Of a stretch of 41,503 nucleotides of DNA, positions 28,339-28,736 are shown piece by piece. The translations under genes were made by a program, and so were the position numbers. How positions within the stretch are numbered: the first letter of the stretch is position 1; each line of letters opens with the position of its first letter. This DNA comes from Microcaldota archaeon (GTDB lineage: Archaea > Micrarchaeota > Micrarchaeia > Anstonellales > Anstonellaceae): positions 1 to 41,503 of the forward strand of contig JAGVWK010000045.1 in NCBI GenBank assembly GCA_018304295.1, given 5' to 3'. The notes below the pieces were generated by a model. That model was given only the letters and a program-made list of their open reading frames with translations, searched no databases and had not been told where the DNA came from.

Positions 28339-28353
28339 CGCCGAGGAGGAGAT

Positions 28354-28441
28354 TTGTTCGCTGGTTTCTGCCCTCTCTCCAGCATTGAAAAGGGGGTGAA
28401 ACCTTGGGGGGATTTTGGAACTGCTTGTGTTCCCCCTAGGT
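28354..28441 (-). other. T-loop intron of tRNA-Ser (88 nt)
   Basis: Interrupts the T-loop between TTCAA and AT. The 5' junction is GTTC-AAA-CCTAGG and the 3' junction GAAC-AAA-TCTCC: GTTC pairs with GAAC as a 4-bp central helix flanked by AAA bulges, as in a bulge-helix-bulge. Internally it has a strong hairpin CCTAGGGGG/CCCCCCAAGG and a second one GCTGG/CCAGC. Cutting after the second A of each bulge leaves a normal seven-base T-loop TTCAAAT. Exact cut sites are inferred. Confidence 0.75.
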
Positions 28442-28474
28442 TTGAACTCCTACTCCACGGAAGTGGAACCAGAT

Positions 28475-28504
28475 ATCTTGGTTGCCCGCCGCAGCGGGTG
28501 GGAT
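28475..28504 (-). other. Anticodon-loop intron of tRNA-Ser (30 nt)
   Basis: Lies after position 37, the canonical archaeal site. CTCG and CAAG form a central helix (with one C-A mismatch) between AAA and ATA bulges, and the intron core is the hairpin CCCGC-TGCG-GCGGG. Removal restores the loop CTCGAAA and the stem CCAGA/TCTGG. Confidence 0.75.
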
Positions 28505-28544
28505 TTCGAGTCTGGCGCGTTAGCCGGATTCCGCCACCTCGGCA
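28503..28544 (-). repeat. 42-bp direct repeat, copy A (tRNA-Ser exon 1)
   Basis: Identical over 42 bp to 28695-28736, offset 192 bp. It covers the complete 5' exon of tRNA-Ser plus the first two intron bases and one upstream base, then diverges sharply. Confidence 0.97.
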
Positions 28545-28564
28545 TTGGAGTTTATATTTGACAA

Positions 28565-28735
28565 GAAATAAAAAGCAGGGGGGAGGGTCAGGATTAAACC
28601 TAAAACTGGGGACGCGGGTGTTCGCCGAAGCGAACACTGCGCGCCTTTTTCCGAAGGAAAAAGTGCGGGGGGGGTCCCCCTCCGCGGTTTAGGTATTTCG
28701 AGTCTGGCGCGTTAGCCGGATTCCGCCACCTCGGC
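28565..28735 (-). ncRNA. Candidate structured RNA starting with a duplicated tRNA-Ser 5' half
   Basis: Starts with an exact copy of the tRNA-Ser 5' exon (from 28735) beneath its own TATA box, but no 3' half follows. Instead the stem ACCTAAA/TTTAGGT (28688-28694 with 28598-28604) encloses a G/C hairpin near 28664-28686 and two stems capped by C(UUCG)G loops, CTTTTTCC-TTC-GGAAAAAG at 28645-28663 and GTGTTCG/CGAACAC at 28618-28637. A T-tract (CTTTTTATTTCTT) at 28562-28575 would end it. The stable tetraloops and the closing stem suggest a real folded RNA. Function unknown: tRNA half, decoy, or degraded tRNA. Confidence 0.5.
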
Positions 28736-28736
28736 A
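28695..28736 (-). repeat. 42-bp direct repeat, copy B (isolated tRNA-Ser 5' half)
   Basis: Exact copy of the tRNA-Ser exon 1 region. Downstream sequence (ACCTAAACCGCGG) differs from the intron of copy A. Perfect identity implies recent duplication or selection on this half. Confidence 0.97.

Follow-up and report, generated by a model that had tools for sequence, protein, structure and literature searches.

How do introns enter archaeal tRNA genes? The question is raised by a tRNA-Ser(CGA) gene in the window analysed here, which is the whole 41,503-nucleotide stretch of DNA examined from a Micrarchaeota genome (G000). This gene is interrupted in its anticodon loop and, by a much longer insert, in its T-loop. 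Can such a gene be functional, and where did the second insert come from?

The tRNA-Ser(CGA) locus and its empty site

The architecture proposed for this gene in the first-pass annotation, a tRNA-Ser(CGA) with an anticodon intron and a T-loop insert, proved exact in sequence, coordinates and lengths, and the strand, which had been left unstated, is the minus strand (Table 1). In the precursor, an exon of 39 nt is followed by the intron of 30 nt, an exon of 33 nt, the insert of 88 nt and an exon of 15 nt. At the mature T-loop exon junction GAGTTCAA would be joined to ATCTCCT, the exact T-loop cut being ambiguous between 58/59 and 59/60 owing to run-on A's. The gene was seen neither by ARAGORN nor by Rfam in the raw window, for which both reported a tRNA-Thr only, and was called by ARAGORN as tRNA-Ser(cga) with a 30 nt intron once the 88 nt had been taken out. 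When the whole window was scanned on both strands for the succession T-stem, insert, T-stem and acceptor, with acceptance by ARAGORN, this locus was the sole match, and the same scan for interrupted tRNAs gave no match in 20 Markov copies of the window. Rfam detected no group I intron at the locus at the gathering threshold.

Table 1. Features of the tRNA-Ser(CGA) locus (window positions; G001, sister genome of the same genus).
Feature	Position	Strand	Remarks
tRNA-Ser(CGA) gene	28339..28543	minus	205 nt precursor, mature 87 nt; matches G001:C4:30734-30849 at 87/87
Anticodon CGA	28506..28508	minus	
Anticodon-loop intron, 30 nt (37/38)	28475..28504	minus	also in G001, 2 differences
T-loop intron, 88 nt (58/59 or 59/60)	28354..28441	minus	missing in G001; excision restores tRNA; family member
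GTTC|AA, 5' exon side: G53-C56 of central helix and two exon nt of 5' bulge	28442..28447	minus	
GAAC|AA, 3' intron end: complement of GTTC and two intron nt of 3' bulge	28354..28359	minus	4/4 pairing
Dispersed repeat module (ACCTAGGGGG...CCCCC), 5' ~55 nt of T-loop intron	28387..28441	minus	copies in other T-loops and outside tRNA genes
Copy of tRNA-Ser 5' half, 45 nt, upstream	28692..28736	minus	1 difference relative to the 5' half within the gene
Spacer with second dispersed element (ACCTAAACCGCGG...TTTTAGGTTTAATCCTGACCCTCCCCCC)	28545..28691	minus	

Comparison with one sister genome of the same genus (G001) revealed a tRNA-Ser(CGA) gene in which all of the mature bases are identical and the T-loop is uninterrupted, that is, a precise empty site: the T-loop reads GGAGTTCAAATCTCC in G001, whereas in G000 the insert lies between GGAGTTCAAA and ACAAATCTCC. 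The anticodon intron, by contrast, is shared by the two species. As the one coding region compared is only ~73% identical between the genomes, the complete identity of the exons speaks for an interrupted gene that is maintained by selection and works. We regard the locus as probably functional, encoding a tRNA-Ser(CGA) precursor that contains two archaeal tRNA introns, of which the one in the T-loop belongs to a family that would have spread across T-loops in the genus.

A second intact Ser(CGA) gene, which the first-pass annotation had named, together with a lack of spliced product, as a ground for doubting this one, was not found in the G000 assembly, which is 84% complete, so that such a gene could be missing from it. 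The Ser(CGA) tRNA may not be essential, since tRNA-Ser(UGA), for which a normal gene is present in G000, may read UCG.

Exon-intron pairing and the splicing endonuclease

The first-pass annotation had described a GTTC/GAAC helix with AAA on both sides as matching the bulge-helix-bulge rule. These elements are literally present, but the 3' bulge measures 5 nt when the full T-stem is paired. The Ser intron uses the GAAC register, with a 4/4 helix and, as long as the T-stem is not slipped, bulges of 3 and 5 nt, and thus represents a relaxed motif, which has no continuous inner helix; a strict 3-4-3 arrangement would require a slipped T-stem (A52-U60, G51-C61, G50.U62). When the Ser precursor was folded for minimum energy, neither the cloverleaf nor the bulge-helix-bulge appeared. 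In the UGAA register a strict 3-4-3 bulge-helix-bulge is formed on an intact T-stem, and the intron of tRNA-Gly, a member of the same family, folds unaided into such a structure. In the consensus fold of the family, two hairpins accompany the T-stem and the central helix.

Pairing between exon and intron end at all four positions (GUUC or UUCA/UUCG, two registers) was found in 37 of 38 T-loop introns, about a third of which had been retrieved through the GAACAAATC pattern that already contains GAAC and therefore pair partly by selection. With shuffled intron ends, a mean of 3 and a maximum of 9 introns showed 4/4 pairing in 2000 trials. All but one of the introns found by homology alone pair 4/4, and in two related tRNAs an exon GTCC is matched by an intron end GGAC.

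G000 encodes a full-length ε2-type EndA (E 8.5e-130 against ARMAN-2 4FZ2, 198 of 386 residues identical) in which the catalytic Y235, H250 and K281 and the specificity-loop lysine (K160/K161) are kept. As the first-pass annotation had anticipated of a Micrarchaeota genome, a putative broad-specificity endonuclease, of the three-unit ε2 type, is thus encoded; broad specificity is attributed to the loop lysine of ε2 enzymes (PMC6379350, PMC12397907). G000 also encodes a second, shorter EndA-like protein (L090, G000:C18:10332-10583), which, like its relatives, apparently lacks the catalytic histidine, and in many genomes of the order further short EndA-like frames occur besides the ε2 enzyme. The short protein is possibly a structural subunit.

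On our reading of the locus, both introns of the Ser precursor would be cut by the ε2-type endonuclease. In the T-loop this enzyme would recognize the relaxed bulge-helix-bulge in which exon GUUC is paired with GAAC at the intron end, and the exons would then be joined by a tRNA ligase, presumably of the RtcB type.

The T-loop intron family and copies outside tRNA genes

When the 88 nt insert was used as a BLAST query, its first ~50 nt recurred at about ten further places in G000 and at as many in G001, most of these copies, judged by their surroundings, being T-loop introns of other tRNAs. The family is carried by at least nine tRNAs in G000 (Ser, Gly(GCC), Tyr, Pro, Leu(TAG), Lys(CTT), Lys(TTT) and two unnamed by ARAGORN) and by eight in G001 (Leu, Gly, two Pro, Lys, Met and two more). 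Similar intron sequences thus recur in different tRNAs within one genome, a feature of transposing introns of the Thermoproteales type, and the two species differ reciprocally in which tRNAs carry the intron, the T-loop of Ser being interrupted only in G000 and that of elongator tRNA-Met only in G001. Searches with R1, a covariance model of the family, recovered the T-loop copies, and related copies were found chiefly among genomes of the same family. In one further genome (G002) T-loop introns of ~175-225 nt consist of tandem copies of the module (L223-L228), and elsewhere a single tRNA (L185, G027:C3:60247-60321) apparently contains D-arm, anticodon-loop and T-loop introns together.

Other Micrarchaeota carry T-loop introns of differing sequence at the same site and with the same ends. 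A search of 84,980 species genomes with the Ser-specific 3'-end pattern gave six true matches, all in genomes named Micrarchaeota, the remaining six matches not being tRNA genes. The pattern ending in GAACAAATC had matches in 62 of 301 Micrarchaeota genomes, compared with ~30 for its reversed control, and the pattern ending in KTGAAAATC in 115 of the 301, compared with ~34; a perfect 5-bp T-stem flanked the insert in 13 of 14 pattern matches picked for reading. The supposed rarity of T-arm introns, put forward in the first-pass annotation, is therefore contradicted by the related T-loop introns in the G000 tRNA genes and by the others in many Micrarchaeota; that the Ser insert is part of a dispersed repeat family had escaped that annotation. 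Removal of the insert allowed ARAGORN to see 33 loci (Ser and 32 others), 30 of which were invisible in the unspliced state. As ARAGORN and Rfam miss most tRNAs interrupted in this way, Micrarchaeota will appear tRNA-poor.

The module is not confined to T-loops. One copy (L148, G000:C48:8863-8937) directly follows a glutaredoxin stop codon and has at its border a 12-nt repeat of sequence from close by; it was not seen at the orthologous place in G001, and related copies occupy several further non-tRNA places. To judge from these sequences, a dispersed repeat may turn into an intron at sites whose exon sequence is able to pair with the end of the repeat. Related modules also directly follow tRNA 3' ends in several genomes (L229, L230, L231, L235, L152 and L164). 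In G015 a tandem module (L232, G015:C23:10602-10749) constitutes the anticodon-loop intron of a tRNA-Arg, and one repeat family thus serves two intron positions.

In this Micrarchaeota genus the homologous family would have entered many tRNA genes, always at the one T-loop site, and at the Ser gene the intron would have been gained, or kept, after the split of the two species. The direction of this spread, whether from repeat to intron or from intron to repeat, and its mechanism are what we infer rather than observe. As a tentative and somewhat doubtful extension, a short mobile repeat, a hairpin running from ACCTAGGGGG to TTTCACCCCC of ~55 nt and often ~95 nt, might actively create Micrarchaeota tRNA introns. 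It would land at the T-loop, sometimes at the anticodon loop, at tRNA 3' ends and after stop codons, would be spliceable where its end pairs with exon GUUC(A), and would be an archaeal counterpart of introner elements. An IS200/IS605-type Y1 transposase, an idea derived from the hairpins, was rejected as the mobilizer, only a fragment being present in G000 and none in G001, G002 or G015.

Alternative readings, known systems and the upstream half copy

If the locus were a pseudogene, the tRNA would have been broken by insertion of a repeat and by duplication of its 5' half, and UCG would be read by tRNA-Ser(UGA). Much of the insert is indeed a dispersed repeat module, a broken 5' half lies upstream and G000 has a normal Ser(UGA) gene. 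Yet the exons equal those of G001 at every base despite the divergence of the coding region compared, the end of the insert pairs with the exon, and the same kind of insert resides in Gly, Tyr, Lys and Leu tRNAs, which cannot all be dead, making this explanation improbable. That the insert is an artefact of metagenome assembly or binning is hardly credible: the assembly is apparently fragmented (49 contigs) and assemblers fail at repeats, but the same architecture was encountered in independent assemblies from different projects, with intron sequences that differ and ends that are the same. Carrying more weight, though still unlikely in our estimation, is an intron ancestral in the genus and cleanly lost in G001, so that nothing was transposed at the Ser gene. 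T-loop introns of tRNA-Ser do exist in other genera, but they differ in sequence, the G000 Ser intron being closest to the introns of other tRNAs in G000 and G001, and a precise loss at the DNA level requires a cDNA route.

The near-perfect copy of the 5' half located upstream of the gene, which was overlooked in the first-pass annotation, ends just past the anticodon and is absent from the retrieved flank upstream of the G001 gene, might be taken for a working half gene whose product is attached in trans to the 3' half, as in split tRNAs, the downstream 5' half being bypassed. From inspection of the sequence this reading is judged very improbable, because the copy runs into the second dispersed element, with no leader matching the 3' half noticed, and the full gene has its 3' half joined to its own 5' half. 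The second element has ACCT/AGGT ends and also follows a 26-nt 5' fragment of tRNA-Leu (L166, G000:C41:354-431), besides occurring elsewhere. We read the upstream copy as an insertion scar and not as part of a split tRNA.

Archaea are already known to have T-arm introns, several introns in one tRNA and transposition of introns, and this phylum to have broad-specificity ε2 enzymes. For Thermoproteales, non-canonical tRNA introns and large-scale intron transposition have been described (Sugahara 2008; Fujishima 2010, as cited in PMC4090602 and PMC8450103). The present genus resembles them in having several introns per tRNA, non-anticodon positions and similar introns in different tRNAs, whereas it belongs to another phylum, strongly favours one T-loop site, has part of the sequence also outside tRNA genes and encodes an ε2 and not an (αβ)2 endonuclease. 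ARMAN-1 and ARMAN-2, which possess multiple-intron tRNAs and an ε2 splicing endonuclease, share with G000 the phylum, the enzyme type and the catalytic and loop lysine residues, but no account of a family of T-loop introns was encountered in the accessible portions of the reports on them (PMC6379350, PMC4033280, PMC12397907). In the tRNA-Ile(UAU) of Cyanidioschyzon merolae, T-arm and anticodon introns likewise occur in one tRNA, together with a D-arm intron; this is, however, a eukaryote, and no repeat family was found described in the accessible part of that report (PMC9602550). A T-loop intron family this large in Micrarchaeota, its presence and absence in both directions between congeners and the occurrence of the module outside tRNA genes were not encountered in the literature examined. 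The filled and empty sites of the two congeners, together with the number of tRNAs carrying the family and its extragenic copies, make intron gain by repeat spread directly testable.

The tRNA-Thr of Caldiarchaeum subterraneum (PMC3293823) is similar to the Ser locus in that a copy of the 5' part lies upstream, one intron more is present than in a relative and repeat DNA is inserted in between. There the inserted DNA is 1.9 kb long and includes a putative recombinase gene, and the additional intron lies at 24/25, whereas here the insert is ~150 nt without a gene and the additional intron lies in the T-loop. Short foldbacks whose arms copy the tRNA 5' end were observed just upstream of several tRNA-Ser genes (L037, L038, L026, L070 and L075), and copies of tRNA 3' ends lie downstream at two further loci (L062 and L049).
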